DNA from: Rhodocyclales bacterium
GTDB lineage: Bacteria; Pseudomonadota; Gammaproteobacteria; Burkholderiales; Rhodocyclaceae
DNA: 64,000 bases
NCBI GenBank assembly: GCA_016235805.1
Contig: JACRIY010000097.1
Location: 60,074 to 124,073 of the forward strand
Direction of reading: 5' to 3'
Below are positions 4,774 to 63,320 of this stretch, piece after piece. The first letter of the stretch is position 1. Each line of letters starts with the position of its first letter. The translations under genes and the position numbers were made by a program. Below the pieces are notes generated by a model. It was given only the letters and a program-made list of their open reading frames with translations, searched no databases and had not been told where the DNA came from.

Positions 4774-5763
4774 ATGAGAGAGCCAGGCAGCTCGGCGCAA
4801 ATGCCCGAGCACCAAACGAACGCGCCGTTCCAGCCGTCCAACGGCTTGATGATGAGGGTTGGAGTGCCGCATCGCGGCGGGCGCCTTGCCTTCCATGCGT
4901 TCAACAACGAATACCCGGTGATGGTGAGCGCCAGCGCTTTCTGGGACCGAGCGAGTGGCAGGTTCAAAGTGCCCCGTGCCAGCGACCTCGAGGAGTGCGA
5001 CTTCGCGTTGGATAGCGCGGGCTTCACCGCGATCCGAGGTTGGCAGCGACACGGCGCCCAGGCCGGCATGCTCGGGGTCTACCCGTGGTCGCTGCAGCAG
5101 TACCTGGAACTCGCGAGCGAGTTGCGGTCGGCGTGGTTTGCACAGCCCGACCTGGCCTGCGAGCCGGAGCTGGCCGGCAGCGACGAAGAGCGCCAGCGGC
5201 GGATCGAGGCCACGGCGATGTTGCTCGAGGCCAGCCTGCAGCAGCTCTACGCGTGGCAGAACATCCTGGCTCGCTCGTGCAACGCGAGAACGGTGGCCAA
5301 CATGCTGTTCCCACCCGTGCCAGTGCTCCAGGGCTGGACGCCAGACGATTACCTGCGCAGCCTGGACCTGATGCAAGCGGTCTGGCGCCGCTGGCAGCCG
5401 TGGTTGGCGCCGCCGGCGCTGATTGGAATCGGTTCGGTGTGTCGTCGGCACCTGCACGATCGTCGCCATGGACTGCTCGCAGTGCTCGGTGCTCTGGAGG
5501 GGCACCTGCCGCCTGCGAGCCGGCTGCATCTATTCGGTGTGAAGGGAGATGCCCTGCCGCACCTGCGCCTGCGCCGCTGGATCGCCTCCGCGGACTCGAT
5601 GGCGTACGACGACGGCGCTCGCCGAGCCGCTTACCGGGAGCGCCGGTCAAACCCCATCGACAGCCGACAACTGGCGATGTCGGCGTGGATGAGCAAGGCC
5701 CGCTCGCGCATGCGGCCGCGGCCTGGAGATCAGGAGCGGTTGGACTTCCAGGGGCAGATGTAA
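4774..5763 (+). CDS. DpdA-like (queuine tRNA-ribosyltransferase-like) putative 7-deazaguanine DNA transglycosylase
   Basis: ATG at 4774 preceded by GGAGGTG. Motifs LDSAGFT, AQPDLACEPE, PPVPVLQGWTPDDYLRS, IGIGSVCRR, LHLFGVKGDAL and ASADSMAY match the TGT/DpdA-like pattern. Confidence 0.8.
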   Translation: MREPGSSAQMPEHQTNAPFQPSNGLMMRVGVPHRGGRLAFHAFNNEYPVMVSASAFWDRASGRFKVPRASDLEECDFALDSAGFTAIRGWQRHGAQAGMLGVYPWSLQQYLELASELRSAWFAQPDLACEPELAGSDEERQRRIEATAMLLEASLQQLYAWQNILARSCNARTVANMLFPPVPVLQGWTPDDYLRSLDLMQAVWRRWQPWLAPPALIGIGSVCRRHLHDRRHGLLAVLGALEGHLPPASRLHLFGVKGDALPHLRLRRWIASADSMAYDDGARRAAYRERRSNPIDSRQLAMSAWMSKARSRMRPRPGDQERLDFQGQM

Positions 5764-7683: not shown

Positions 7684-7707
7684 CACCGGAAATCCCGTCC
7701 TCGGTTG
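7684..7707 (-). promoter_or_regulatory. Conserved activator-type promoter box, copy 1
   Basis: Gene-sense CCGAGGACGGGATTTCCGGTG, 24 bp, then GACAGT (7657-7662); about 80 bp upstream of start 7605. Confidence 0.6.
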
Positions 7708-10266: not shown

Positions 10267-10382
10267 CAAGGGCCGCAAGCCGAGCGATCCACCTATGACG
10301 TAGGCCGTCGCGACCGCGCATAACGCTTCCAAGATCGTCCTCCCCGGTGGCCGCTGTGGCCGCCGTCAACGAGGAGACGATC

Positions 10383-11654
10383 ATGGATTCGCTCAACTCC
10401 AATGGGCCCGGCGCGCTGGCGCTGGAGCCGCTCTGCCAAGGCGCTGCGCAGGAACTGCTGATGCGCAGCTACACCATCCGCACCGTCAATCGCTACAAGC
10501 GGGTGTGGAAGCAGCTGGCCGACTTCGTCCGCGCCCAGGGCCTGCCTGCCGAGTACACGCGTGAACTGGCCCTGCGTTTCGAGCAGGCGTACGGCGTTCG
10601 CGACGGGGAGGTGCTCAAGCTCGGCCAACAGTGGCGGCGGCACCTGGTCTTCGGCATCAAGGTGCTCGACGACTTCGCGCGCACCGGCACCATCAGCCGC
10701 TTCGTAGTCGAGACCACCGGGCTTCGAGTACCGGCGGGCATGCACAAGCCCCTGCGGGAGTACGAGCAATACGCCAGGGAGCGGCGGCATCTTCGGCCCA
10801 CCAGCCTGGCCGAGCGGATGCACAACATCGCGGTCTTCCTGGACTTCCTGCGCACTCGCGGCCTGGAGACGCTGGACGCCCTGCAGGCCGAACACCTCAG
10901 CGCCTTCGTTCAGACCCGTACGGACTGGAAGCCGAGGACCGTAGCGTGCGTCTCGTCCAGCGTGAGGCTGTTCCTGCAGTTTCTCTTCATGCGCGGCGCC
11001 CTGCCGCGCGACCTCAGCGCTGCCATCCCAACCGTTCGACTGGCCAGCAATGCCAAGGTGCCGTCGGCGTGGGAGCCAGAACTGGTCGAGCGGCTGCTTG
11101 CTGCCGTCGATCGCAGCTCGCCGAAGGGCCGGCGTGACTACGCCATCTTGATGCTCGCCTCGCGCTTGGGTCTTCGCCTGGGCGACATCAAGCGCTTGAC
11201 GCTCGATCAATTGCACTGGACCACGTCCACCATCGAGATCGTGCAGAACAAGACGGGGGAGCCGCTGGTGCTGCCGCTGATCGAGGAGGTCGGCGCCGCA
11301 CTCATCGACTACCTGCGAGCTGGGCGACCGCCGGTCGAGCACCGGCATCTGTTCACCAACCTGACGCCACCGTTCTCGCCGATCTGCCAGAACGACCGGC
11401 TCCACCGCGTCGTGGCGTACTGGCGGGAACTGGCCGGGATCAAGTTCAAGACCCCGCAGCGTCAGGGACTGCACTCGCTGCGCCATACGTTGGCCACCCG
11501 GCTGCTCGGGGCGCAGACGCCGTTTCCCGTCATCTCGGCCGTTCTGGGGCATGCCTCGCCGGCAACGACCTTCATCTATGCCAAGGCCGACGTGGAGACC
11601 CTGCGCATCGCGGCCATCGATCCGGAGGAGGTGTTCCATGGCCACGCCTCGTAA
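10383..11654 (+). CDS. RIT tyrosine recombinase 1
   Basis: Tyrosine recombinase catalytic motifs: ASRLGLRLGDIKRL, LHSLRHTLATRLL, VLGHASPATTFIYAKAD. GAGGAGA RBS before 10383. Confidence 0.85.
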   Translation: MDSLNSNGPGALALEPLCQGAAQELLMRSYTIRTVNRYKRVWKQLADFVRAQGLPAEYTRELALRFEQAYGVRDGEVLKLGQQWRRHLVFGIKVLDDFARTGTISRFVVETTGLRVPAGMHKPLREYEQYARERRHLRPTSLAERMHNIAVFLDFLRTRGLETLDALQAEHLSAFVQTRTDWKPRTVACVSSSVRLFLQFLFMRGALPRDLSAAIPTVRLASNAKVPSAWEPELVERLLAAVDRSSPKGRRDYAILMLASRLGLRLGDIKRLTLDQLHWTTSTIEIVQNKTGEPLVLPLIEEVGAALIDYLRAGRPPVEHRHLFTNLTPPFSPICQNDRLHRVVAYWRELAGIKFKTPQRQGLHSLRHTLATRLLGAQTPFPVISAVLGHASPATTFIYAKADVETLRIAAIDPEEVFHGHAS

Positions 11655-12633
11655 GCCCGTGACATTCACCGGCAGCAGCCCCCTGGCTCCGCTGATGGCG
11701 CAATACGTTCAGGAGAAGCGAGCCTGTGGCTATCGCTTCAACCCCGCCGCATCCAGCCTGCGCCGACTCGACGCCCACCTGTGCAGCCAAGGCTTGCAGC
11801 AAGTCGAGTTGCCCAAGGCCGCGACCGCATCCTGGCTGGCCAAGCAGCCGCACGAGACCGGCAAGACCCAGCGCGCACGGGTCAACCTGGTTCGCAACTT
11901 CGCCTTGTTCATGCGCCGACTGGACCTTCCTGCCGACGTGCCTGATCACGCCGTGGGCGCCAAGGATTCGAGGCCATTCCTGGCGCGCGTGTTGACGCAC
12001 GGGGAAGTGCGCCGCTTGCTCGAAGCCGCCGACCGGATCGAGCCGATGGCGTCGACTCACCTGCGCCACATCGTGCTGCCGGAGCTGCTGCGCGTGCTGT
12101 ACGGATGCGGCCTGCGTCTCGAAGAGGCTCTGCGCCTGCGCATGCGCGACGTCGACCTAGTCCAGGGGGTGCTGCGCATCAACGACACCAAGTTCCGCAA
12201 GGACCGCCTGGTGCCGCCGGCCCGGCCCCTGGTCGTTCGTCTGCAGAAGTACGCGGCCGCGCTGGGGCCTCGTTCGGACGACGAGTACTTCTTCCCATCG
12301 CCTCGCGGCGGCCGGCTGGACGGCGGTGGCGTGTACCGCAATTTCAGGGAACTGCTGCACCGATGCGGCATCGGCCACGGCGGCCGCGGCGAAGGGCCTC
12401 GACTTCACGACCTGCGCCACACCTTCGCGGTACATACCCTGCTGCGCTGGTACCGCGAGGGTGCCGATCTGCAGCCCAGGATGCCGGTGCTGGCGACCTA
12501 CCTCGGGCACGCCTCGATCGACGGCACCCAGGACTACCTGCAGATGACCGCCGAGCTGCATCCGGAGATCGTCTCGCGGTCGGACGCGGCCTACAGCGAC
12601 GTCATTCCACCCAGGCCCTGGAGGTCGTCATGA
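11638..12633 (+). CDS. RIT tyrosine recombinase 2
   Basis: YGCGLRLEEALRLRMRD, LHDLRHTFAVHTLL, YLGHASIDGTQDYLQM; overlaps genes 1 and 3. Confidence 0.85.
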   Translation: MATPRKPVTFTGSSPLAPLMAQYVQEKRACGYRFNPAASSLRRLDAHLCSQGLQQVELPKAATASWLAKQPHETGKTQRARVNLVRNFALFMRRLDLPADVPDHAVGAKDSRPFLARVLTHGEVRRLLEAADRIEPMASTHLRHIVLPELLRVLYGCGLRLEEALRLRMRDVDLVQGVLRINDTKFRKDRLVPPARPLVVRLQKYAAALGPRSDDEYFFPSPRGGRLDGGGVYRNFRELLHRCGIGHGGRGEGPRLHDLRHTFAVHTLLRWYREGADLQPRMPVLATYLGHASIDGTQDYLQMTAELHPEIVSRSDAAYSDVIPPRPWRSS

Positions 12634-13640
12634 AGCCGACCGACCTCTCCTTGCACGTGACGAACTACCTCACGCGCTACCTCGCCGGCCAGCGCAACCT
12701 GAGCCCGAACACGATCAAGGCCTACCGCGATGTGTTCACGCTGCTCCTGCGCTTTGGCCGCGACGGACGCGGCATTGCCGTCGAGCGCCTCTGCCTGGCC
12801 GACATCGACGTGACCTTCGTCGAGGCCTTCCTCGATCACCTGTCGCAGGAGCGGAAGTGTTCAATCCGCACACAGAACCAGCGGCTGGCCGTGCTGCACG
12901 CATTCTTCCGCTACGTGCAGTCGGAGGTGCCCGAGCGGATGCTGCAGTGCCAGAAGATCATGGCGATGCCGCTGCGGCGCCATGTCCAGGTGCCGGTGGC
13001 CTACATGTCCAAGGACGAGCTGACTCAGGTGCTGGCGCATCCCGATCCGACCACGCCGGCCGGGCGGCGCGACGCGGTGATGCTCAGCGTGCTGTACGAC
13101 ACCGGCGCCCGGGCGCAGGAGTTGATCGACCTGAACGCCCACGATGTGCGTTTGACAACGCCGGCCCAGGTCAGGTTGCTGGGCAAGGGGCGCAAGGTTC
13201 GCGTGGTGCCTTTGATGGACGCCACGGCTCGGCTGTTGCGTGAACACCTGCGGGAGAACGATCTCGATCGGCCCGAGCGAGGCCACCTGCCGGTGTTCCA
13301 GAACCGCCAGGGCGGGCGCTTGTCGCGGTCGGGCCTGCGGTACCTTCTGCACTGCCACGTGCAGGCCGCCCGGTCGGCCGTGCCCGGCTTCACGCAGAAG
13401 ATCAGCCCCCACAGCATGCGGCACACCAAGGGCATGCACCTGCTGCAGAGCGGCGTGTCGCTGGAGATGATCCGCGACTTCCTCGGGCACGTGGATGTGA
13501 AGACGACGCAGATCTACGCCCGGGCGAACCTGGAGATGAAGCGGCGCGCTTTGGAGAAGGTGGCCGGCGAGTCGCCGTCGCCAGCGTTGCCATCCTGGCA
13601 GCAGAGCAAGTCTCTGCTCGACTGGTTGCGCTCGCTATAG
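12630..13640 (+). CDS. RIT tyrosine recombinase 3
   Basis: YDTGARAQELIDLNAHD, PHSMRHTKGMHLLQ, FLGHVDVKTTQIYARA; ATGA overlap with recombinase 2. Confidence 0.85.
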   Translation: MKPTDLSLHVTNYLTRYLAGQRNLSPNTIKAYRDVFTLLLRFGRDGRGIAVERLCLADIDVTFVEAFLDHLSQERKCSIRTQNQRLAVLHAFFRYVQSEVPERMLQCQKIMAMPLRRHVQVPVAYMSKDELTQVLAHPDPTTPAGRRDAVMLSVLYDTGARAQELIDLNAHDVRLTTPAQVRLLGKGRKVRVVPLMDATARLLREHLRENDLDRPERGHLPVFQNRQGGRLSRSGLRYLLHCHVQAARSAVPGFTQKISPHSMRHTKGMHLLQSGVSLEMIRDFLGHVDVKTTQIYARANLEMKRRALEKVAGESPSPALPSWQQSKSLLDWLRSL

Positions 13641-17336: not shown

Positions 17337-17361
17337 CCAATCGAAGTCGGGATTTCCGCTG
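17337..17361 (+). promoter_or_regulatory. Conserved activator-type promoter box, copy 2
   Basis: CCAATCGAAGTCGGGATTTCCGCTG, then GATCCT (17383-17388); 60 bp upstream of start 17421. Confidence 0.7.
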
Positions 17362-17420: not shown

Positions 17421-18479
17421 ATGACGATGGTCGTACGGGCGATCGACCTGGGCTTCGGCAACACGAAGTTCATCACTGCCTCGGTCGACGGCAAGATCGA
17501 GTGCTCGCACTTCCCGTCGCTGGCCGTACTGGCGCCGGGCGAGAAAGGCGTGGTCGACCTCGTTGGCAAGCGCAAGACGGTCTGCGTGCCGGTGCGAGGC
17601 GTCTGGTACGAGGTCGGCTACGACGTGGAGCAGGCGGCATCGGCCTTCAAGGCACGTCCTCGCCACGAGCGGTACATCGAGACCGCCGAGTACATGGCGC
17701 TGACCGCAGGTGCCCTCCGCTACATGGGCTGCAAGACCATCGACCTTCTGGTCGTCGGCTTGCCCGTCAGCGAGTACCTCGCCAAGCGCAAGGACCTCGA
17801 GAAGCTGCTGAAGAAGGAACCCATCCCCATCGGGGGCGGCGACGCGGTCACGATCAAGGAGGTCTTGGTGTTGGCGCAGCCGCATGGTGCGCTCTTCGAC
17901 TACCTGCGCCAGCACGGCGAGGCAACCGGCATCCGCGAGACGCGAAACCTCGTGGTCGACGTCGGCTACCGGACATTCGACTGGCTCACGACCGAGGGGC
18001 TCAAGGTCTATCCGAACATGAGCTACTCCGTGTCGCTCGGCGTGAGTCAGGTGCTGGGAGCGATCGCGCGCAAGATCGGGATCGAGAACGGCATGTCCGA
18101 GCTTCCTGACCTGGACGGGATCGATCGCGCGCTGCGCCAGCGAAAGCCGCTGGCGGTCTACCAAAAGCAATACGACCTGAAGAAGTTTCAGGCCGACATC
18201 GATGCGGTAGCAGACCAGGCCGTGGGCGAGATGTACACCCGGATCGGCAAGATCTATGACATCCGCAACGTGGTGCTCGTAGGTGGCGGGGCCGCGCTCT
18301 ACAAGCGGTCGGTGGCCAAGGTGTTCGATCGCCACAAGATCCTCGAGGTGACCGACCCGCTGCTGGCCAACGTGCGCGGCTTCCAGTGCCTGGGCGAGCA
18401 GCAGGCGCGCAAGAAGCCAAGCGCTCCCGCACCGATCGCTGCAGCGCAAGCCGAGTCGTCGACACCGACAGGAGCCTGA
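17421..18479 (+). CDS. ParM/StbA-like actin homologue (PRTRC protein D-like)
   Basis: MTMVVRAIDLGFGNTKFITA phosphate-1 motif, NLVVDVGYRTFDWL phosphate-2, NVVLVGGGAALYK adenosine motif. Confidence 0.75.
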   Translation: MTMVVRAIDLGFGNTKFITASVDGKIECSHFPSLAVLAPGEKGVVDLVGKRKTVCVPVRGVWYEVGYDVEQAASAFKARPRHERYIETAEYMALTAGALRYMGCKTIDLLVVGLPVSEYLAKRKDLEKLLKKEPIPIGGGDAVTIKEVLVLAQPHGALFDYLRQHGEATGIRETRNLVVDVGYRTFDWLTTEGLKVYPNMSYSVSLGVSQVLGAIARKIGIENGMSELPDLDGIDRALRQRKPLAVYQKQYDLKKFQADIDAVADQAVGEMYTRIGKIYDIRNVVLVGGGAALYKRSVAKVFDRHKILEVTDPLLANVRGFQCLGEQQARKKPSAPAPIAAAQAESSTPTGA

Positions 18480-22333: not shown

Positions 22334-22954
22334 TCAAAGCTCCCGGGAAAGTGCGACGCTGGTGATCGGCACCTTCAGCGGATCGAGCAGGTGACGAAGC
22401 GCGCGCAAGGGATCGTCGCCGGTCTGGGCTCGAGCGGTGACGATGGCCGACGCACCGGCCTCCAGCGACCGAGCCAGGAATCGGGGCAAGTCGGGGAGCA
22501 GTCTTGCCGTCCTCTCGAAGTCATCCACCAGCAGCACCGACTGATGGTCTGCAGGCCGAACCAGCTGCAGGGGCGAAGTCAGAGCGGTACAGCTGCCGGA
22601 GACGAAGGCGCAGCTGCCCATGTCGAACACCTCAACAGGCCGCGTTGCAATCAACTGATGGGCAAAGGATCCGTCAGGGAGCAGCCTCGACAGACTGCCG
22701 CCCGTCAGGCGCGCGAATGTCCGGACTGGCTGGCCAGTGCCGAAGACCATCACGTGCCGCCCGGTCCGCACGCCGTTCAACGCGGCGTCGAGCGCGTGCA
22801 CGGTCTTGCCGGCGCCGGACGGCCCGGTGACGCAGGTGAAGCGGCTCTGGCGGGGCAGCAGCTCCGGCAGGCAAACGAGGGACAGCCCGGTCGCCGCGGC
22901 GAGGTTGACGCGCAGGTCTGGCTGGGACGAAGGGGGCGAGAGGACGGCTTCCAT
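22334..22954 (-). CDS. P-loop ATPase of unknown role
   Basis: Walker A GPSGAGKT; Walker B-like SVLLVDDFE. Confidence 0.65.
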   Translation of the reverse strand: MEAVLSPPSSQPDLRVNLAAATGLSLVCLPELLPRQSRFTCVTGPSGAGKTVHALDAALNGVRTGRHVMVFGTGQPVRTFARLTGGSLSRLLPDGSFAHQLIATRPVEVFDMGSCAFVSGSCTALTSPLQLVRPADHQSVLLVDDFERTARLLPDLPRFLARSLEAGASAIVTARAQTGDDPLRALRHLLDPLKVPITSVALSREL

Positions 22955-23052: not shown

Positions 23053-23077
23053 CAGCGGAAATCCTGACTTCGATTGG
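23053..23077 (-). promoter_or_regulatory. Conserved activator-type promoter box, copy 3
   Basis: Gene-sense CCAATCGAAGTCAGGATTTCCGCTG, then GACGCT (23026-23031); about 99 bp upstream of start 22954. Confidence 0.7.
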
Positions 23078-33410: not shown

Positions 33411-36320
33411 CTACTTCCGCTTGTTGAGGCGGCCCATCATCGGCGGAATCTCTGGCGTGGCGTCGATGGCTTTCTGATACTCGCTGTCCTTCATGCGAGC
33501 CTTCATCTCCTCATTCCGCTTGAGGGCCTCAGCCGAGCCATCCTGCATAGCCGCCTCGGCGTCACGGCCCAGGCCCTCAACAGTCTGCTTGACCATGGAA
33601 CGATGGCCGATCACCTTTCCATCAGGTGTTCGCGTGAGCTCGTGTTCTCCGTCGAATCCCTGGTAGGTGCCTTGCACCTGTGACCGCTTGGCGTCGACCT
33701 GATCGCCGACCCCGCGACGGAAGCGCGCTGGATCTGCCAGTTCACCAGGCGCGCCGTCCACAGGCTTCGGCATCGGAGCATCTCCGACTGGACGAGCCGA
33801 TGGTGGAGCGCCTGGATCCGTCAGCGGGCGGCCGGCGACGTTGGCATCATTCGAAGCCTTGAGCCCGGCAAGATCCCGTTGTACAGCGGCATCCCCGCGC
33901 TGCGCGTCCGCCATCGCTCGCACCTCATCGAATCCACTGGGCAAAGCAGATCCTTGGTTGAAATGCGATGGCGTCAACGAGTAGTTGCCCAGCCGAGACG
34001 ACAGATAGGCAGCTAGGCTTTGTGTGTTTGAACCGTACTGTGCGGCCGCCCTTTCGTGTTCAAGCACCGCATCCACGAACGCCGGGTCCCTCGCGATGTC
34101 ACGAGTGACGGTTTCGCCTCGTTCGAACGAGCGGCGGGTCTCCTCTGAGTAAGACAGCGCTTCGTTGAACCTCCGCTCCGCGGACTCCATCGTGCTTGCT
34201 GTCTTCGACAACGAAGAGGCCAGGCTCCTGCCGCTCTGGCCTTCGGAGGAGAGGGAGTTCAGGAAGGCTCGATCTGTCGTTGCACGATCTCCAAACGCGC
34301 GCACAGCCCTGTATGTGTCGCTGTTAGCCTGATCAAGTACCTTGTGCTCGTCAGCGCTGAGCTTGGCACCGTATCTCTTCTCGATCGTTCCGCCACCCCC
34401 AATGCCATATGCGGACGGCATTGCGGAGAATCGAAGCAGCGTTCCCGCCACCTGGTCCTCCCCAACACCGGTAGCCTTCGAGATGCGGCTGGCCTCGCTG
34501 GCCAGGCTGTCAGCAGCCTTACCCACCTCCTGGTAGCCGGAAAGGCCGGTGCCCGCGCTCGAGCGCGATCCGCTGCTCCGAGTTCGAGCTCGATTGAATG
34601 CCTCGGTAAGGCTGACAGCCTGGGCACTTGAGGCCGAGACAACGTTTGAGGCCGCAGCCGATGCAGCCTTACCAGCCGATTCCACGTCGCTCGCCGACAC
34701 CCGTGCACTGACTTGATGTGACGTGATGCCCTCGTTCTTGAGGAGCGAAATGGCGCGTCGGCCAGTACCGTCCTCGGTCATCCAATTGCCATGGACATCC
34801 TGAGTCTTCGTAACGAACGGGTTGGACGTCATTGGGCTGACGACACGCTGATCCATCGACACATTTCCCAGGGACGCGTTGCCAGCAGCAGCGGCGGCCG
34901 ACTGATTGCCAATGGTCGACTGCAGCCCTTGAAGCCCACCGAACAGCGTGCTCCCAAAGTTGACCAGCCGGTTCGATAGTGACCAAGCCAGGTAGGGGAT
35001 GCCGATGATCAGGTACGACACGACGGCTTGGGCCGAGATCGAGTTTGAGTAGATCGGGGAAGCCGTTTGCAGAGCCAGGGCCTTCACCCCGGCGCCGACC
35101 TCCGCAGCGGCTGCCTGGTCAGTCTGAGCAGCCAGCGTTGCCATGTAGTTGAGGATGGCGAAGAGCGGCGGCCAGAGCTGAATGGAGATCAGCACCGTCG
35201 CATAGCCGCTCAACAACAGGACCGTGTGCTTGCCGCTGGTCAGGAAGAGCAGAAGGACGATAAGAGGAAAGATCGCATAGCACAGCGACTCCGCTCCGTT
35301 TCGGACGATGGGCAAAGCTTCTGCCGAGATCTTCGCTCCGTTGATCCACGCTGCATTCTGGCCTGCAACAGAAGCCGCGCGGCCAGTAGCAAGCATCATG
35401 CAGGACGGATCGTTCACACGTTGGCAACCCATCTCACCCGCGTCGTTGATCGCGTTGATGATGGCGTTCTGGCGGATGATGTCTGCGGCTGTGGCCGAGG
35501 ACGCTGCGATCTGGCTGCGGATGTAGCCCTGCGTTATCTGATTCAGAACCGCCGCCTGAGCCATCGCGGCAGGTAGTGATGGGTTGAGCCGAATCCCAAG
35601 TCGTTTTGAAAGCTCGTCCACTTGAGCAGGCATTCGACTGTTGATCGAGGCATACACCTGATCGCAGGTGTTCGTTGTGACGCCGGCGGGGGTCGTGACG
35701 ATGCTGAACCGAGCCGGGTTGGTGGAGGCCATCGTGCTCCACAGGTTGTCCGACTTAGAGAAGGCATCGGCCGGGATCGTGCCGTCCGCAATGTCATAGG
35801 CCGTGCAGTTGCTGACAAAGTTCATTAGGTCGGTGCGGACCGACGGATCAGGCAGCGTCACGCTCCGAGTTTCTTGAATCATGCGGCTGCCGAACATGAG
35901 GCCGTTTTGCTGATATGCCAGTTCGGAGGGAAGCGACCCGGGGCCGGGGATCACTTGAAACGCTGTCTCGGCGAGCTCCGTCAATGAGTTGCCGATCGTG
36001 CTCGTCAGCCCTCCGAGGACAGCCATGGCGAACGGAACGTTCGCCACCACCTTCACAGGAGATCCGCCTGTCTTGTCGACGATTCCAACGTTCACGCGAG
36101 GGATGAACATCACCGACGAGACAAGGACGACGGTTCCTAGCCACTTCCAGCCTTGCAGCTTCTCGGGCGCAACGACGTATGCCACCATCGCAACGACGAA
36201 GCCGCAGAAGACAACAGCAGCCAGTGCACCTAGATAGGTCGACGACCCCATCATCGCGGCGACGGCATTGAAGATGCCGAACAGCGATTCGGAGTTGTGG
36301 AACGCGTAGATCTCCCACAT
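33411..36320 (-). CDS. traG: Conjugal transfer mating-pair stabilization protein TraG (F-type)
   Basis: 969 aa; MWEIYAFHNSESLFGIFNAVAAMMGS N-terminus with TM segments and long periplasmic C-terminus; adjacent to traH. Confidence 0.9.
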   Translation of the reverse strand: MWEIYAFHNSESLFGIFNAVAAMMGSSTYLGALAAVVFCGFVVAMVAYVVAPEKLQGWKWLGTVVLVSSVMFIPRVNVGIVDKTGGSPVKVVANVPFAMAVLGGLTSTIGNSLTELAETAFQVIPGPGSLPSELAYQQNGLMFGSRMIQETRSVTLPDPSVRTDLMNFVSNCTAYDIADGTIPADAFSKSDNLWSTMASTNPARFSIVTTPAGVTTNTCDQVYASINSRMPAQVDELSKRLGIRLNPSLPAAMAQAAVLNQITQGYIRSQIAASSATAADIIRQNAIINAINDAGEMGCQRVNDPSCMMLATGRAASVAGQNAAWINGAKISAEALPIVRNGAESLCYAIFPLIVLLLFLTSGKHTVLLLSGYATVLISIQLWPPLFAILNYMATLAAQTDQAAAAEVGAGVKALALQTASPIYSNSISAQAVVSYLIIGIPYLAWSLSNRLVNFGSTLFGGLQGLQSTIGNQSAAAAAGNASLGNVSMDQRVVSPMTSNPFVTKTQDVHGNWMTEDGTGRRAISLLKNEGITSHQVSARVSASDVESAGKAASAAASNVVSASSAQAVSLTEAFNRARTRSSGSRSSAGTGLSGYQEVGKAADSLASEASRISKATGVGEDQVAGTLLRFSAMPSAYGIGGGGTIEKRYGAKLSADEHKVLDQANSDTYRAVRAFGDRATTDRAFLNSLSSEGQSGRSLASSLSKTASTMESAERRFNEALSYSEETRRSFERGETVTRDIARDPAFVDAVLEHERAAAQYGSNTQSLAAYLSSRLGNYSLTPSHFNQGSALPSGFDEVRAMADAQRGDAAVQRDLAGLKASNDANVAGRPLTDPGAPPSARPVGDAPMPKPVDGAPGELADPARFRRGVGDQVDAKRSQVQGTYQGFDGEHELTRTPDGKVIGHRSMVKQTVEGLGRDAEAAMQDGSAEALKRNEEMKARMKDSEYQKAIDATPEIPPMMGRLNKRK

Positions 36321-38403: not shown

Positions 38404-39309
38404 TCACTTGAGGGAAACCTGGCGCACCGTGGACGGCACCAGCTGAGCCGTGGCGGGGGCGGCAACGGTTGAGATGCGCTCGAGCAGCTGCGACTCGGAC
38501 AGCACGCCGTAGCCGAGCGGCGAGATCTTTCCGGTGAACGGCTCAGCGAGGAACACCGCCGGCACCTGCGTCACCTGCAGCGTCTTCGCGATGCCGTTGT
38601 CGCGGCGGAAGCTGGGGAACTGGGGCAGGCCGCCGCCGTCGACGCTGATCGGCACCACCTGGATGCCGTGCCGCGCCTGGAACGCCTCCAGCGTCGGCGC
38701 GAAGGCGTGGCAGTAGGGGCAGTCGGATCTGAAGAAGAAGAAGAGGACGTGCGACTTGCCCAGAGTGGCCACGGACCTTTGGCGGTCGGCGGACAGCTCG
38801 CGGTCGTAGACCTGGATCGCCTGCGCGTTGACAGGCCGTCCCTCGAGCGTCATGTCCAGGTTGGGCGTGGCCCAAGCGACGCGCTGCGCAACGTCGGCGA
38901 AGTAGGAGGCCTGGCGCACGACGCTCGCCTCGAGCTCCATGTACCGGCGGACGTTCGATTCGGTGGGCCGGATGATCGCGATGTTGCGGTACTCCTCGAG
39001 CCGCTTCTGCAGCGCTTCGAACTCGACGAGCTCGGGCGCCCGCGCGTCGGGCTGCTTCGGTTTCACGGGCGGCTTCGCGGGCGGTAGTGGCTTCGGGGGA
39101 AGCTCGAGCTCGGGATCCTCATAAAAGTGCCAGCCGCGGCGGTGATCCAGCCAGAACAGAGGTTGCGCCGTCGTGCTCGGGGCTGCCGTGGCGACCTGGT
39201 CACCAGGCTGCCCCTGCGCGGCCGCACCGGCGGCAGCTGAGGCCAGCGCAAGCGTGATGGCAAGCAGCGTGAGCGGCCGTGAGGCGGATCGAGTAGTTCC
39301 GGTGGGCAT
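38404..39309 (-). CDS. traF: Conjugal transfer protein TraF (thioredoxin-like, F-type)
   Basis: HVLFFFFRSDCPYCHAFAPTLEAFQARHGIQVVPISVDGGGLPQFPSFRRDNGIAKTLQVTQVPAVFLAEP. Confidence 0.9.
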   Translation of the reverse strand: MPTGTTRSASRPLTLLAITLALASAAAGAAAQGQPGDQVATAAPSTTAQPLFWLDHRRGWHFYEDPELELPPKPLPPAKPPVKPKQPDARAPELVEFEALQKRLEEYRNIAIIRPTESNVRRYMELEASVVRQASYFADVAQRVAWATPNLDMTLEGRPVNAQAIQVYDRELSADRQRSVATLGKSHVLFFFFRSDCPYCHAFAPTLEAFQARHGIQVVPISVDGGGLPQFPSFRRDNGIAKTLQVTQVPAVFLAEPFTGKISPLGYGVLSESQLLERISTVAAPATAQLVPSTVRQVSLK

Positions 39310-39363: not shown

Positions 39364-39387
39364 CAGCGGAAATCCCGACCTGAATCG
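39364..39387 (-). promoter_or_regulatory. Conserved activator-type promoter box, copy 4 (upstream of traF)
   Basis: Gene-sense CGATTCAGGTCGGGATTTCCGCTG, then TAGCGT (39337-39342); 55 bp upstream of start 39309. Confidence 0.7.
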
Positions 39388-56171: not shown

Positions 56172-56278
56172 CGACAGACCTCGCGTGGGAGAGAGTGCGC
56201 AGTGCATCGGTTGCCTTTGTCTCGGCGACGAAGCGTCGTCGTCGTGAAGCAAAGGTTAGGAGCGCACTCGCTCCCAAA

Positions 56279-56303
56279 CACTCGGAAATGCCGACTTAGA
56301 ACG
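56279..56303 (-). promoter_or_regulatory. Conserved activator-type promoter box, copy 5 (upstream of main tra operon)
   Basis: Gene-sense CGTTCTAAGTCGGCATTTCCGAGTG, then TAACCT (56253-56258); about 108 bp upstream of start 56171. Confidence 0.6.
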
Positions 56304-56324: not shown

Positions 56325-56963
56325 TCAGCGCAACACGTGATAGTTAGCGAGGGCACGGCTCGTGACGAACAGCATCGCCAGCAGAGCCGCCATCACAACC
56401 ATGGGATGGAGTTGGATAGGAAGGAACCAGGCCACCACCACGCCGGCGCCGAGCAGAATGCCCGCGGCGAGGCTGGCACTGAACCGCTCGGCACTGTGCG
56501 CGATCAGCTCCTTCGATCGCACGATTCGGACCACCGACCCATCGAGGACGACGGCGAACAAGAATGCCGCCAGCACGGGCAGGAGTTCGAGTGCGGCGCA
56601 AAGCCGATAGCTCACCAGCGCGAAGAGGGAGTCGATCGACCGGAAGTACGGGTTGCTGAAGAGGCGCGTTCCGACTTGGCCGACTTGCGCCGCCATGGCC
56701 GCGTCGACGGCACCGCCTGGGGCGGACGCCAGTTCAGCTGCGGGCGCAGCGGCCGATGCAGGAGTGGCCATCGCAGACGCCTGTTGGAGGTCCAGCATGC
56801 GCGCGAGGATCCGGTCAGCGGTTTCCTGCCCCCAGACCTCACTGGCCAACGCATGCTCGTCGCGCAGTACCTGCATGAACTCCGCGGGACCGACCCGCGA
56901 CGGGATGTAGAGGACGATGCAAAGAAGCGCGCTCATCGCGCCGATGAAGATGTAGCGGATCAT
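56325..56963 (-). CDS. DUF4400-like membrane protein (SXT/ICE-type tra accessory)
   Basis: Four TM segments; YFRSIDSLFALVSYRLCAALELLPVLAAFLFAVVLDGSVVRIVRSKE; directly downstream of traD. Confidence 0.75.
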   Translation of the reverse strand: MIRYIFIGAMSALLCIVLYIPSRVGPAEFMQVLRDEHALASEVWGQETADRILARMLDLQQASAMATPASAAAPAAELASAPGGAVDAAMAAQVGQVGTRLFSNPYFRSIDSLFALVSYRLCAALELLPVLAAFLFAVVLDGSVVRIVRSKELIAHSAERFSASLAAGILLGAGVVVAWFLPIQLHPMVVMAALLAMLFVTSRALANYHVLR

Positions 56964-58861
56964 GCGGCGGCTCGCTCGGGCGGGGGCTGGTCGAAGTCCG
57001 GATTCAGGATCGGGAACCGCCCCTTGATGAGCCGGCCTGCCACCGAGCCGAAGTACTGCAGGTTCGGCAGCTTGCCCAGGACGTCCACCGGGACACGCTC
57101 GTCCATCTCCTCGGTCACCTGCACGCTCTGGCCGGCGCTCCAGTCACCAAGGTGCGTGTCGGCTCCCTGGCTGATCCCGACGCGCATGGTGTGGATGCCG
57201 GTCTTGCCAAAGGTCTCCACGATGAAGTCCTGCGTGGGCCGGTCCTTGGACCTCAGCGCGATGAGGTTGTTCAGGTTGCCGAGCGCCATGCGCGCGGCGT
57301 CTTCCGAGCCGAGGCGCTTCGCCAGGTCAGCGAGCGTCTGCATGGCGCACACCGTGCTGACGCCGCCTTCAGCGCCCTTGTTGAGGATCTCGATCAGCGG
57401 CAGGTTGATGACATTGGCCATCTCGTCGATGAAAAGGCTTATCCGCCGGCTGCTGCCAAGGTTGTAGCGCATGCCTGCGCGGGCCGCGAGGTCCGCGATC
57501 GCGAGCGCGCTGATGGCTGATGCGACCGAAGGGTCCGGCATGGAGTCCGTGCACATGTAGAGCACGTGCCCGCCACGCTCGACCTTCTCGAGGTTCATGA
57601 TGGGGCGGACGTCGTCCATATCGAACGGTTCCGGCGACAGGCTCTTGCCCAGGTCGCCCGACGTCAGCATCGCCAGGATCGGGAGCAGGTTGGCGGTGAT
57701 CTTCTGATAGTGCTCGCGGTTGTGCCGGTACACGCGAATCTGCGAGTCGATCACCTTGTCCCGCTGGTTCTGCGGCAGGTGCTGTTCGTAGTAGGTCACG
57801 AACGCCAGCAGCTGCGGTGTCGTCACCTCAGAGGGCCGCTTGATTTGCCCCTTGGCAGCTTGGCTCAGCAGGCGCCGCGCGTCGTCGGTTTCGCGCCAGC
57901 CGGGCTGCAGCTTCGCGTCGAAGAAGCGCTGCAGGGATGCCTCGAGCACTGGCTCTATGCCGCCCTCGATGTACTTCGTGAGCTTCATCAGGTTGGGGCG
58001 GTCTTCCAGGCTCACGAGCCCCTGCACCACCACGTTGACCGCATCCCACCCGAACGCCGTGAATGCGCCCGCGGTGTCAACGGGCATGATCGATTGGATC
58101 CTCGACGCGATCTCAGTCGGCTTCTGCCAATTGAAGGTGAAGTCCAGTCGCACGCCGGTCTCCGGGAATGCGGGGTGGAATTCCATGTACGTGTCGGCTT
58201 CACGGTAGTCGCGGCAGGCCCGTTGGACCACGCGCTTGAGCCGCTTGCTGTTCTTGGGATCGATGAAGATGACGACGTCACCTCTTCGTATGGCCTGCGT
58301 GATCAGTGTCCCGAGGGCCACGCCCTTGCCGGCCTGTGTGGTGCCCACGAGCAGCGTGCCGCCCTCGAAGTTTTGCAGGGGGCGGTAGAGCGGGCGCTCG
58401 GTTGGTTCGACGCCGTGGATGTACGGAAGCCCAATCTCTCCATCGGGCTGCGGGTTCTCGATGAACCCGAGCAGGCGCAGCAGCTGGGGCGACAGCGCAT
58501 GATCCTTGTAGTTGATCTTCTGAAGTTCGTAGAGGCGCTGCGAGTGCACAGGAAGCCACTCGAAGCCGAACCCGAGGAAGAGTTCCTGCGGGTCGCGCGT
58601 GAGGGTTTCGAGACGCTTGGTCGTGATCACCTGCATGGCCCTCCCGGACAACGAAGCGCGGACCTGGAGAACCTCAAAGCCCTGGCGGAACCGGTGCCCC
58701 GCCATCAGGATCGCGAGCAAGGCGACACCCATCGCAGCGCGCATGGTCACCGTGCCTCGACCGGCGAAGTACACGATGAACACGAGGCACGACAGCCACC
58801 CGAGCGCCGCCCACACCTCGTAGGCAGGGCGCCAGGGCATCTCGTAGCGGCGGATCAGCAT
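56960..58861 (-). CDS. traD: Type IV coupling protein TraD
   Basis: GGTLLVGTTQAGKGVALGTLITQAI Walker A; RISLFIDEMANVINLPLIEILNKGAEGG Walker B region. Confidence 0.93.
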   Translation of the reverse strand: MLIRRYEMPWRPAYEVWAALGWLSCLVFIVYFAGRGTVTMRAAMGVALLAILMAGHRFRQGFEVLQVRASLSGRAMQVITTKRLETLTRDPQELFLGFGFEWLPVHSQRLYELQKINYKDHALSPQLLRLLGFIENPQPDGEIGLPYIHGVEPTERPLYRPLQNFEGGTLLVGTTQAGKGVALGTLITQAIRRGDVVIFIDPKNSKRLKRVVQRACRDYREADTYMEFHPAFPETGVRLDFTFNWQKPTEIASRIQSIMPVDTAGAFTAFGWDAVNVVVQGLVSLEDRPNLMKLTKYIEGGIEPVLEASLQRFFDAKLQPGWRETDDARRLLSQAAKGQIKRPSEVTTPQLLAFVTYYEQHLPQNQRDKVIDSQIRVYRHNREHYQKITANLLPILAMLTSGDLGKSLSPEPFDMDDVRPIMNLEKVERGGHVLYMCTDSMPDPSVASAISALAIADLAARAGMRYNLGSSRRISLFIDEMANVINLPLIEILNKGAEGGVSTVCAMQTLADLAKRLGSEDAARMALGNLNNLIALRSKDRPTQDFIVETFGKTGIHTMRVGISQGADTHLGDWSAGQSVQVTEEMDERVPVDVLGKLPNLQYFGSVAGRLIKGRFPILNPDFDQPPPERAAA

Positions 58862-58872
58862 GGGCGGTGCTC

Positions 58873-60648
58873 CTAAGGTTGGGCGGCAAAGAGCGCTGGG
58901 TCGAGTCCGTCGACAAACTCAGGCCGCAGGACGAAACCGAGGACCTCCTGCCCCGCCAGCTCGTGCTGCACCGTGTTTGGGCGGCCGCCCTTGCCGGTGA
59001 CGGCCATCTGGAGTTCGCCCAAGGCGCGCAGGACGACCGGGAGGTCGAGGTTGGCCTTCTTGAAGTGGTCCAGCGGAACGAAGATGCCGGCGGGTACGGT
59101 GACGGCCAGCGCGGCTTTCGCGTCGCCGTTCATGGAGTCGATCGCCGCAGCCAACGCCTCCCGAACCTGCGGTTGCAGGCGCAGGGGAGCAGAGAGGCGG
59201 AAGACCGGCTCATCGGGACCCGAGGGTGCGGCCATCGTCTGCGGCGACTCGGTATCGGCAGCCTTGGCGGTCGCCGCCGGCGTCGTGTCGACCACCTCTC
59301 CGTCCGACGTGATGACGACGTTCGGGCCTTTCGGGGATTGCGTTTCCCCGGGCGCGCTCAACGGCAACTCGCCCTGGTCCGGAGCGCGCCGCTCACCGGC
59401 ATTCTCTGGTGGCTTGGGGGCGGCCTTTGATGCGCCAGCCGCGGCGATCAGCGGCTCTTGGAGGGGTTTGTGATCGCTGTGGGCCGGCAGCAGGATCTCG
59501 GGCGAGGAGAGCTTCACCGCTTCGACGGCCGTCTTCCCTGGCGGCGGGTTGATCGACCACAAGGGACTCTTATCGCTGGCCGGGATGAGGACGCCGGCAC
59601 CGGTCAGGATCTCCAGGATGGTCTGCGGCGATTGCGGGATGCCGGGCAGCTCATCCTCTTCGAGCAGCTTTCGCATTTCGGTCACCGCGTTGGGCCACAC
59701 GATGAACAGACCTTCCGGTCCGTGCCAGACACGCGACCGCTCCTGGTTCGGCGACCAGGCCGAGTGCGCGACGATCAGCCGCCGCATGGCGTCGATCAGG
59801 TAACGCTCGATGTGTGCGCCCAGGATCGGCCGTCCATAGCGGTTCGCATTTGCGATGAGATTCCGGTCGATCACGAGTGCGGTCGCGCGCTTGACGAGGT
59901 CGACCAGTACGTTCTGATCGCGGTACATCGGGATGCCTGCGATAGACGCGAGCAGCTGCGGCACCACGACAGAGTTGCCGGTCGCCAAGTGCTGCATCGT
60001 GGATCCCGGAACGACGTGGGGGAGCGCGAACAACCCGAGCGCACGTGTCTCGGTGGACTTGGGCAGCCACCGGATGAAGAAGCGTGGCGACTTCCGCTGA
60101 ACCAGCCAGGCCGTGAGCGGTCCGAGGTAGGCGGGCCACTCCTCGCCGCGCTCGTCGGTGACGACGAGCTGACTCAGCGTGCGGTGCAGCTCGCAGCAAA
60201 GGCCAGCAAAGAAGGTCGCGAGTCGCCAGCGGGGCTCGAGCTGCCGGCGAGTCGAGATCGTGGCCCGGCCGGAGACGATGTGACCGTCGGTGCCTTGCAG
60301 CGCATAGAACCCGACCTCCAACGCCAGCCTGAACAACCCGCCGATCTCGCAGAAGTAGTTGTCGGCGGTCGCCGGCAGGACGTTCACGTAGCTGGCCAGG
60401 CGACGGATCGGATCAAGCAGATCCTTCTGGAACGTGGCCGTGTCGGCGCCGTAGCACAACTTGATGCGCGACAGCAGGTCTTCGTGGGACGCGAGAAGCG
60501 CCTCCACGGTGACCGCCGCGATCCCCGGATCGACGGACGGTGCGACTTGCGCGGGCGGTGGCGTTGCCTCGATTCGCGGCTCGATGCGCGCGGGGTCGGG
60601 GGCGGGCCGTGAACCGTTGCCCAGGCCAAAGAGCGAAAGGATCGACAT
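58873..60648 (-). CDS. TraI_2/MobH-family protein with altered HHH/HD residues
   Basis: LPATADNYFCEIGGLFRLALEVGFYALQ...FFAGLCCELHRTLSQLVVTDERGEEWPAYLGPLTAWL; C-terminal TraI_2_C-like region (IFVPLDHFKKANLDLPVVLRALGE). Confidence 0.8.
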   Translation of the reverse strand: MSILSLFGLGNGSRPAPDPARIEPRIEATPPPAQVAPSVDPGIAAVTVEALLASHEDLLSRIKLCYGADTATFQKDLLDPIRRLASYVNVLPATADNYFCEIGGLFRLALEVGFYALQGTDGHIVSGRATISTRRQLEPRWRLATFFAGLCCELHRTLSQLVVTDERGEEWPAYLGPLTAWLVQRKSPRFFIRWLPKSTETRALGLFALPHVVPGSTMQHLATGNSVVVPQLLASIAGIPMYRDQNVLVDLVKRATALVIDRNLIANANRYGRPILGAHIERYLIDAMRRLIVAHSAWSPNQERSRVWHGPEGLFIVWPNAVTEMRKLLEEDELPGIPQSPQTILEILTGAGVLIPASDKSPLWSINPPPGKTAVEAVKLSSPEILLPAHSDHKPLQEPLIAAAGASKAAPKPPENAGERRAPDQGELPLSAPGETQSPKGPNVVITSDGEVVDTTPAATAKAADTESPQTMAAPSGPDEPVFRLSAPLRLQPQVREALAAAIDSMNGDAKAALAVTVPAGIFVPLDHFKKANLDLPVVLRALGELQMAVTGKGGRPNTVQHELAGQEVLGFVLRPEFVDGLDPALFAAQP

Positions 60649-60687
60649 GACGATGGCAGCACAGAAAGTGCTGCCATCGTCGGAAAG

Positions 60688-61857
60688 TCATGCGACCCGA
60701 TCCACCGGAAATCCCGCCTTTGATCGCGTTGCCGGTTCCGGCAACGCGGCGTGCCCGCCGCGGTACTGCGACGGATAGCGCATCAGGAGGCAGAAGGGAC
60801 AGGGCTGGGGGCTGCTGTCGCGCCGGCTGATCAGGTACTCGGCCGCACATGCTTCGCAGCGCCTGCGTTCGAGCTCCGCAGTCGTCACGCCCCAGCGGGC
60901 GTCCGCCAACGAGATGACCTCCACGCATCGGTCGAGTGTCAGAGGCGAGTCGGTGCGGAACTTGGGCTCGAGGTATCGGAAGGCGGCCACGACGGACTCT
61001 TCCGGTGGGAAGCCTGCGTCGCGCAATGCGAGGTACTGGGTGACCACCAGCGAGTACTGGATTCGCCGCACGGTGTTGAGATACGAGCCCCAACGCTGTA
61101 GTGGTAGAGGGAGCCCCCAATACACGAGCTCGGTCGGTGGTGGGGGACGCAACGCCGGATCGACGCCGTCCATCTCGGACATGAGCACGTCGATGACGCG
61201 CTCGCTGGCGCCCAGATCCTTCAGCCACCGGCGCAGCTTGAGGGCCGTGAGACGCGTGTCAAGCCCGTTGGCCGATCGCATGGACTCGCGGCCGCCGCTG
61301 AGACGCGTGTCGCCGGCGTCATCGCAGCGGCGGCTGTTGCAGAACGCGCAGGATGCGGTTGCACCCGATCCATAGGGCTGGAGATGACGACTGCCGCATC
61401 GACGGCACTCGACGAGCTGCAGGGCCTTCGTTTGGCACGCCCAGATGCCATCGAGGTTGCAGCAGATGTAGAACGCTTCGTCGAACAGCAAGGTCGGTGC
61501 GTTCGGGAAGGAGCGGTAGTGCCTGAACGCGGTCACGAGCGACTCGGCCGGTGCGAATTGGCTGTCTCTCAGGCGCTCGTAGTGGGCTGCGAAGGCGCTC
61601 GCGCCTGCCTGGAGTCGCAAGGGTGCACGAGCGAGGAACTCGTCCGAGTACGGCGGCCGGCCGCGCCGCGCGCCCCCGCATTTGTCGAACACGAATCGCA
61701 GGATGAAGGTCGCGGGAAGACCCGTCATCAGTTCGATGGTGCGCGCGCAGGCGCCGAGTTCGACGCACTCGCGGGCCGTCTGCAACGCGTTGAGACCCTT
61801 GCCCGCGTACGGGCCGGCATTGCGCCGGTTAGTTCGCGGCTGCCGTGTGGCCGACAT
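60688..61857 (-). CDS. FlhC-like transcriptional activator subunit, tandemly duplicated
   Basis: Two FlhC-like halves: ARECVELGACARTIELMTGL..YHYRS..CRRCGSRHLQPYGSGATASCAFC, and LRRWLKDLGASERVIDVLM..CEACAAEYLISRRDSSPQPCPFC. Confidence 0.75.
   Translation of the reverse strand: MSATRQPRTNRRNAGPYAGKGLNALQTARECVELGACARTIELMTGLPATFILRFVFDKCGGARRGRPPYSDEFLARAPLRLQAGASAFAAHYERLRDSQFAPAESLVTAFRHYRSFPNAPTLLFDEAFYICCNLDGIWACQTKALQLVECRRCGSRHLQPYGSGATASCAFCNSRRCDDAGDTRLSGGRESMRSANGLDTRLTALKLRRWLKDLGASERVIDVLMSEMDGVDPALRPPPPTELVYWGLPLPLQRWGSYLNTVRRIQYSLVVTQYLALRDAGFPPEESVVAAFRYLEPKFRTDSPLTLDRCVEVISLADARWGVTTAELERRRCEACAAEYLISRRDSSPQPCPFCLLMRYPSQYRGGHAALPEPATRSKAGFPVDRVA
60703..60726 (-). promoter_or_regulatory. 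Conserved activator-type promoter box, copy 6 (upstream of traI-like gene)
   Basis: Gene-sense CGATCAAAGGCGGGATTTCCGGTG, then GACGAT (60676-60681); 55 bp upstream of start 60648; inside the flhC-like 3' end. Confidence 0.7.
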
Positions 61858-62134
61858 GGCGCTTGGGCATGGTGGCCAGAACGGGGAGCACCGTCGGGTG
61901 CGCCGACAACAGGTTGGTCAGGTCGCCCCGCGGGACGAACAGCGGCTCTTCGCCGACACGGGCAATGAGCGACAGCACATCGGTGTGGGTGAGCGTGCTG
62001 ATCTGCTGCAGGACCTCCTTGCTCAGCCCGAATCGGCAGCACGCCGCGGCAAGGTCCTCGCGTGCCGCGTCGCGCACGAGCGCGATCGCGGTGAAATTGA
62101 GCGTTTGAACTTCGCTCCAATTGACTGAGGTCAT
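61829..62134 (-). CDS. FlhD-like transcriptional activator subunit
   Basis: LNFTAIALVRDAAREDLAAACCRFGLSKEVLQQISTLTHTDVLSLIARVGEEPLFVPR; immediately upstream of and overlapping the flhC-like gene. Confidence 0.7.
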   Translation of the reverse strand: MTSVNWSEVQTLNFTAIALVRDAAREDLAAACCRFGLSKEVLQQISTLTHTDVLSLIARVGEEPLFVPRGDLTNLLSAHPTVLPVLATMPKRHVGHTAAAN

Positions 62135-62227: not shown

Positions 62228-62257
62228 AGAGTACCCAAAAAGTTCACGAAGTGTCAA
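62228..62257 (-). promoter_or_regulatory. Sigma70-like promoter for the flhDC-like operon
   Basis: Minus strand TTGACA (62252-62257), 18 bp, TACTCT (62228-62233). Confidence 0.6.
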
Positions 62258-62285
62258 ACACGCACTTGCAAAATGGATCAAAAAC

Positions 62286-62300
62286 TAATCAGTGATTAGT
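62286..62300. promoter_or_regulatory. Palindromic operator candidate CTAATCAGTGATTAG
   Basis: Perfect 15-bp palindrome upstream of the flhDC-like promoter. Confidence 0.55.
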
Positions 62301-62337: not shown

Positions 62338-62352
62338 GCTCAAAACTTGAGC
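62338..62352. promoter_or_regulatory. Palindromic operator candidate GCTCAAAACTTGAGC
   Basis: Near-perfect dyad (6-bp arms), matches 62455-62469 on the opposite strand. Confidence 0.5.
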
Positions 62353-62454: not shown

Positions 62455-62469
62455 GTTCAAGTTTTGAAC
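62455..62469. promoter_or_regulatory. Palindromic operator candidate GTTCAAGTTTTGAAC
   Basis: 6-bp arm dyad; reverse complement GTTCAAAACTTGAAC is nearly identical to 62338-62352. Confidence 0.5.
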
Positions 62470-62471
62470 TT

Positions 62472-63320
62472 TTACCCGGCGGGCCGTCGCAGCGCAGCAA
62501 AGCCCAGGCTCAGCGCATTGAACAGGAGCAGTGTCCGCGCGGGTTTCTCGAATAGCTGCGCGCGGAAGGTCGTGGTGACCTCCTCGAACTGGGCTTCCTG
62601 GCTGTCCGTCAGGGTGTCGGCCAGGACGATCAGGGGCGCCGAGGCCGCCCTGCTCCTGATGAGCTGGAGCACGTCGCGTGCATCGTGCTCTCCCAGTTGC
62701 CAGTCCACGATGTAGCCGTCAAACGTCATGGTCTCGAGAGCCGACCGGATGTGTTCGGGGTTGCTGTACGAGATCGCCTCGAGCCCCTTCTGCCTCAACA
62801 CCTGAACGATCGCCTCGGCCGTCGCCTCGTCGTCGTCGATGACGGCCACGCGCCGCGGCTCCTCCGCCTCGAAGATGACGCGCCGCACCTCGTAGACCGT
62901 GCGGCCGGCGGCATCAGCTGGGGTAAGCACCTCCCACGCCCCGGATTCACCATCGCGGGCGGCGACCAGCGGACCGACAGGCTTGTCTCCCGGAATCGCC
63001 TCGCCGGGCCACACCGCGCATGCCAACTGCAAGCCAGCCACCTTGAGCACCGCCGGTTGGCCCGCATCGTCGACCAGCGCCCCGAGCAGCTTGAACACGG
63101 GTTCGCCGAAGTGCGACGCCAGGCGCTTGATCTCGTCCACGTTCCAGGGCGTCTCGCCGGTCATCCGACGACGCACCTGCTGGTACTTCATGCCCGCAGC
63201 GGCCTCCAGCGTCGTGTTTCGCCTACGCTCGGGCACCCCATGCCGATCCAACAGCGCCTGGATGGCCCGAGAGATGACCGGCTCGGCCTTGCGCTTGTCT
63301 CCGCCCGCTTCTTGTTCCAT
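62472..63320 (-). CDS. BetR-type HTH fused to a response-regulator receiver domain
   Basis: RHGVPERRRNTTLEAAAGMKYQQVRRRMTGETPWNVDEIKRLASHFGE (BetR-like); RRVAVIDDDEATAEAI...GYIVDWQLGEHDARDVLQLI...LFEKPAR receiver D/D/K pattern. Confidence 0.75.
   Translation of the reverse strand: MEQEAGGDKRKAEPVISRAIQALLDRHGVPERRRNTTLEAAAGMKYQQVRRRMTGETPWNVDEIKRLASHFGEPVFKLLGALVDDAGQPAVLKVAGLQLACAVWPGEAIPGDKPVGPLVAARDGESGAWEVLTPADAAGRTVYEVRRVIFEAEEPRRVAVIDDDEATAEAIVQVLRQKGLEAISYSNPEHIRSALETMTFDGYIVDWQLGEHDARDVLQLIRSRAASAPLIVLADTLTDSQEAQFEEVTTTFRAQLFEKPARTLLLFNALSLGFAALRRPAG

Follow-up and report, generated by a model that had tools for sequence, protein, structure and literature searches.

What does an FlhDC-like pair of proteins do directly upstream of a relaxase gene, in a genome that also holds a separate canonical flagellar flhDC (contig C38)? 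The pair lies in the window, by which we mean the whole 64,000-nucleotide stretch of Rhodocyclales DNA analysed here. Both ORFs are on the minus strand and in the order flhD–flhC: the flhD-like ORF (61829–62134, 101 aa) overlaps with its 3′ end the start of the flhC-like ORF (60688–61857, 389 aa) by 29 nt. Downstream follow traI (58873–60648, minus strand), encoding a MobH-family relaxase (327.7 bits against the NCBIfam MobH profile, cut-off 200), and traD (56960–58861, minus strand), encoding an SXT-type coupling protein (643.8 bits against SXT_TraD, TIGR03743, cut-off 366). A DUF4400 gene and F-type mating-pair-formation operons occupy positions 33411–56963 of the same strand, recognized by synteny, with genes matching traL, traE, traK, traV, traC, traW, traU, trbC and traN, then traF, traH and traG; they are colinear with those of an annotated Piscinibacter gummiphilus plasmid and of Rhizobacter sp. 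Root1221. ORF coordinates and profile matches thus confirm what an earlier note on this DNA had described, a pair in flhD–flhC order immediately upstream of traI–traD, and the combined HMM, profile and synteny evidence bears out its placing of an FlhDC-type pair beside an SXT/IncA/C-type (MobH, F-type mating-pair formation) transfer module. The same note called the element plasmid-borne; complete plasmid relatives make this likely, but no end overlap for circular closure was found in the 124-kb contig.

Upstream of flhD lies a gene for a regulator with a BetR domain and a receiver domain (62472–63320, minus strand; Pfam BetR 67.8 bits, Response_reg 36.6 bits). The order regulator–flhD–flhC–mobH–traD–DUF4400 is kept in Rhizobacter Root1221, in a second element of the same assembly (contig C122) and in the Piscinibacter plasmid, while flhD–flhC–mobH–traD is kept in a Janthinobacterium plasmid and in G692.

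The FlhC-like protein, at 389 aa, is twice as long as a normal FlhC because it is, by profile comparison, two FlhC domains in a row, an architecture overlooked in the earlier note. According to hhalign, domain 1 covers approximately residues 20–176 and domain 2 approximately residues 199–360, joined by a linker (ca. 176–198). The N-terminal half matches canonical FlhC with E = 4.7e-8, the C-terminal half with E = 1.8e-5, and the two halves match each other with E = 1.2e-20, all of these being E-values for a single comparison of small alignments. The CxxC…CxxC zinc site of the FlhC family is present in both halves, as C151, C154, C170 and C173 in domain 1 (61339–61407, minus strand) and as C334, C337, C353 and C356 in domain 2 (60790–60858, minus strand). 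All eight cysteines are invariant in an alignment of the four tandem homologues, that is, the window protein and its counterparts in Root1221 (85% identical), C122 (36%) and the Piscinibacter plasmid (37%). For the window and Root1221, omega comes to 0.07 for the N-terminal and 0.09 for the C-terminal half, which places both halves under purifying selection and argues that the protein is no assembly artefact. The FlhC-like label given to this ORF earlier gained no backing from the single sequence, which on its own matches neither a Pfam nor an NCBIfam FlhC profile, but it is backed by the profile–profile matches of both halves; PF05280 matches two of the four tandem members (best 9.5e-5, below cut-off). 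Single-FlhC cousins pass the PF05280 cut-off, with 27.5 and 35.4 bits. AlphaFold2 monomer models, with only the window and Root1221 sequences as input, were of low confidence (pLDDT 38.7 and 52.2). No paper on a tandem FlhC was found in the open-access literature, and no relatives of the window FlhC were found in viral contigs.

For the FlhD-like protein, the Pfam profile PF05247 gave E = 6.6e-5 and 23.5 bits, just below the curated cut-off of 27. Homology is backed by profile matches: a profile of six FlhD-like sequences matches the solved FlhD 8j56 (E = 7e-4) and, in profile–profile comparison, canonical Burkholderiales FlhD (E = 2.2e-8). The omega of flhD is 0.12 between the window and Root1221. 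Pfam profiles were found too weak to detect FlhCD-like activators in a 2015 survey, in which relatives were reported from elements of Enterobacteriaceae and Vibrionaceae (PMC4542580).

At the equivalent locus, the Janthinobacterium plasmids and G692 encode a single FlhC of 205–213 aa. The N-terminal halves and the C-terminal halves form two supported groups beside these single-FlhC proteins in a maximum-likelihood tree, and the window clade and its single-FlhC cousins stand, on long branches, apart from canonical FlhC, AcaC and AsaC. As the tree joins both halves to single FlhC proteins of the same locus, FlhC was probably duplicated and fused within this family of elements. Tandem FlhC preceded by an FlhD gene also occurs in a second lineage, at three loci (L066, L067 and L027, in G380, G469 and G509). 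The G469 protein reaches 64 bits against Pfam FlhC in two stretches and is followed by a TraI_2-like gene; no plasmid relatives of this lineage were found. Since it is separate in the tree, the FlhC fusion may have arisen twice; a single origin is also possible, the branches being long.

The earlier note likened the pair to SetCD and AcaCD, a comparison that stands as regards the kind of pair and the placement of the box (see below) but not as regards close relationship to AcaCD, gene neighbourhood or FlhC architecture. Canonical flagellar FlhDC shares with the window pair the homology of both subunits and the Cys4 zinc motif; it differs in its flagellar targets and in lacking a tandem FlhC, and the host keeps its own canonical pair. 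The pairs of the Janthinobacterium plasmid and G692 resemble the window pair in their flhD–flhC–mobH–traD locus and join the tandem halves in the tree, but contain one FlhC domain only. SetCD of SXT/R391 ICEs is an FlhCD-like master activator of SXT-type transfer, and the window TraD matches SXT_TraD; by description, SetCD has a single FlhC and is not found next to traI. SetCD is SOS-controlled by SetR. AcaCD of IncA/C (IncC) plasmids is likewise an FlhD-type plus FlhC-type pair on a MobH, MPF_F element, with a box before traI, the T4SS operons and traF in a class II position near −35 (PMC4207636, PMC4542580). Conversely, it has one FlhC per chain where the window has a fused double FlhC, it lies beside traG and a lysozyme-like gene and not before traI, and its box is another one, with a palindromic core in our reading of the sites in PMC4207636. 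The FlhC halves align with AcaC/AsaC at an hhalign probability of 9–38%, which together with their separation in the tree, on long branches, places the pair outside the AcaCD/SetCD clade as represented by AcaC and AsaC. BisDC of ICEclc also combines an FlhC-like protein with a partner to activate transfer as an ICE master switch; BisC is a DUF2857 protein and BisD is ParB-like (PMC7423338). The window proteins match neither family in Pfam, and the pair is not BisDC. On the best reading, the pair works like AcaCD and SetCD but does not belong to their clade.

K-mer comparison of intergenic DNA revealed a shared box, CASCGGAAATCCNGACNTNNATNG, which reads ATYRAAGTCGGGATTTCCGCTG towards the gene. 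Allowing up to 3 mismatches, the pattern has 5 matches, compared with 0.01 expected by chance. There are five good copies, three with the exact consensus and two close to it, all in one orientation relative to their gene. On the minus strand, the copy before traI lies inside the 3′ end of flhC (60703–60726), with its 3′ end 54 nt before the traI ATG. The copy at 39364–39387 (minus strand) precedes the traF–traH–traG operon, again 54 nt before the ATG at 39309, and that at 56280–56303 (minus strand) precedes the T4SS operon, whose start is 56171 or 56207. The latter copy is 111 nt from the assumed ATG, or about 75 nt from the true start codon should this be the in-frame ATG further upstream, at 56207, which three elements retain. 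Each of the three tra operons is thus preceded by a box. The other two good copies are located before a parM/StbA-type actin-like partition gene (17421–18479, plus strand; Pfam ALP_N, 88 bits), at 17338–17361 (plus strand) and 59 nt before the ATG at 17421, and before an AAA ATPase gene (22334–22954), at 23053–23076 (minus strand) and 98 nt before the ATG. The parM-like gene is hence a likely member of the regulon. The six-copy box of the earlier note is real in these five copies; the sixth, at 7684–7707 (minus strand), is weak, with 3 mismatches, 23 bits as against 37–43 for the others, and no clear target gene. A further copy with 3 mismatches was observed outside the window, at approximately 3020–3050 of L023 (contig C78 of the same assembly), where it precedes by ca. 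115 nt an ORF weakly similar to HTH and phage-integrase proteins. Palindromes of the form TTCAA-N3-TTGAA near flhD were also considered as the regulon box and discarded because no more than two good sites turned up, each of them in front of flhDC.

Root1221 has the box at the same four orthologous places, including those before the T4SS operon and parM, and the traF–traH–traG copy is conserved there within otherwise diverged non-coding DNA. Where the traI box overlaps flhC, 13 of 13 codons agree with Root1221 in the third position, compared with 61% over the gene, and dS is 0.20 in the flhC tail versus 0.86; the invariant third positions show that the DNA itself is constrained. Across 398 further Burkholderiales genomes the box occurs never exactly and once with 1 mismatch, whereas this element alone has three exact copies and one with 1 mismatch. 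The Piscinibacter element yielded no shared box.

C122 is a related conjugative element with its own double FlhC, FlhD, BetR-receiver protein and box. Its activator is about 35% identical to that of the window, and its conserved sequence, GGGGGATGCnGnCGnCGTTTCGrGTTG, differs from the window box. This sequence lies 51 nt before traI, 59 nt before parM and 105 nt before the T4SS operon, and a weaker copy precedes the element's own flhD. The three sites were first chosen visually in the regions before the genes; in a subsequent test against shuffled sequence, box pairs with parM gave z of 6–10. That the box has kept its position but not its sequence is what joint divergence of operator and activator would produce. 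Comparison of the two elements of this assembly suggests that box sequences change while site positions stay, and offers a tractable case of activator–operator co-evolution. Since contamination of this draft assembly is estimated at 2.9%, it is uncertain that the window element and C122 share one cell.

A shared box near the promoters of the tra operons is a feature of AcaCD/SetCD-like function, and it is present here. The boxes bound by AcaCD and SetCD at tra promoters overlap the −35 region (PMC4207636, PMC4542580), and FlhDC, SetCD and AcaCD are all class II activators on boxes overlapping the −35 region (PMC4542580). As the distances in the window fit such an arrangement, we infer that FlhD and the double FlhC bind the box and recruit RNA polymerase. 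The two proteins would be expressed from a single operon of overlapping genes and would assemble into a heteromeric complex; a single FlhC chain would contribute the two FlhC lobes as a built-in dimer. This complex would bind the 22–24 bp box, at a position overlapping a weak −35 region or immediately before it, and recruit sigma-70 RNA polymerase (class II activation), whereby traI–traD, the main T4SS operon, traF–traH–traG, parM and the ATPase gene would be switched on together. Judged on sequence evidence, we are fairly confident that the element has in this pair its own master activator of transfer, of the FlhDC type and class II. With a box before every transfer operon, the pair probably turns on the spread of the element between bacteria, and the box is probably its binding site. 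The box before all tra operons, at a conserved promoter-like distance, fits the earlier proposal that the pair would bind it and coordinate transfer. With such a role, conjugation under FlhDC-type control would extend to a group of elements in Burkholderiales, and the box would serve as a direct read-out of the regulon.

The alternative that the BetR-receiver regulator (62472–63320) binds the box, with the FlhDC pair acting elsewhere or as its partner, is an improbable one, though it has points in its favour. This regulator is the other element-borne DNA-binding candidate of the syntenic block, and it is kept in Root1221, C122 and Piscinibacter, diverging in step with FlhDC; given this parallel divergence, the box alone cannot tell the two apart. 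Still, flhDC precedes mobH with no BetR homologue detected in Janthinobacterium, and likewise in the examined stretch of G692, and FlhDC-type pairs are known tra activators of related MobH/MPF_F elements. Furthermore, three separate palindromes between flhD and the regulator gene, CTAATCAGTGATTAG, GCTCAAAACTTGAGC and GTTCAAGTTTTGAAC (62285–62299, 62338–62352 and 62455–62469), suit a BetR operator better than the box does and could be candidate operators of this regulator. Together with FlhDC as the activator at the box, the BetR-receiver protein would then probably set when flhDC is expressed. A conserved sigma-70-like promoter of flhDC (TTGACA, 18 nt, TACTCT) lies at 62257–62228.

It is very unlikely that the pair instead cross-talks with, or modulates, the flagellar FlhDC regulon of the host rather than mainly driving transfer: a canonical flhDC is indeed at hand on contig C38, but the pair is strongly diverged from canonical FlhC, linked to traI in every relative of its lineage seen, and accompanied by a box that is nearly confined to the element. 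That the double FlhC is decaying or chimeric and the pair non-functional is hardly credible despite its Pfam scores below threshold, since both zinc motifs are intact in each of four independent tandem homologues and omega is ca. 0.07–0.09 in each FlhC half.

A perfect 14-bp hairpin (60649–60681, minus strand, −30 kcal/mol) lies between flhC and traI, directly adjoining the start codon of traI. Root1221 retains this hairpin, though with another loop, and a similar hairpin in C122 pairs with the traI start codon. Transcription directed by the traI box would begin inside the hairpin, and transcripts from this box would lack its 5′ arm, so that the hairpin may silence traI on read-through mRNA; traI would probably be kept untranslated on messages running through from flhDC. 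An Rfam search of the window returned no known RNA.

The single-chain double FlhC is an unusual architecture and provides a natural test of the relation between FlhD4C2 stoichiometry and DNA symmetry. Speculatively, it could be a covalent dimer with diverged DNA-reading lobes, so that the complex (e.g. FlhD4 plus one chain) would read a one-directional and not a symmetric box; covalent pairing might also insulate it from host FlhC and from a co-resident sister element. We regard this as a possibility with the odds somewhat against it; if true, two related elements in one cell would keep orthogonal transfer switches.

Some further features of the window deserve mention. The leader of the T4SS operon (56172–56280) is near-identical between the window and Root1221 and has a predicted stable fold of −44 kcal/mol over 109 nt; a structured leader or an oriT region is possible. 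As the T4SS-operon gene also reaches about 90% identity, the leader exceeds it modestly. An ORF at 4774–5763 matches Pfam DpdA (DeoxyPurine in DNA protein A) with 46 bits and is possibly DNA-modification cargo. Finally, three adjacent tyrosine-recombinase genes occur in a row at 10347–13640.
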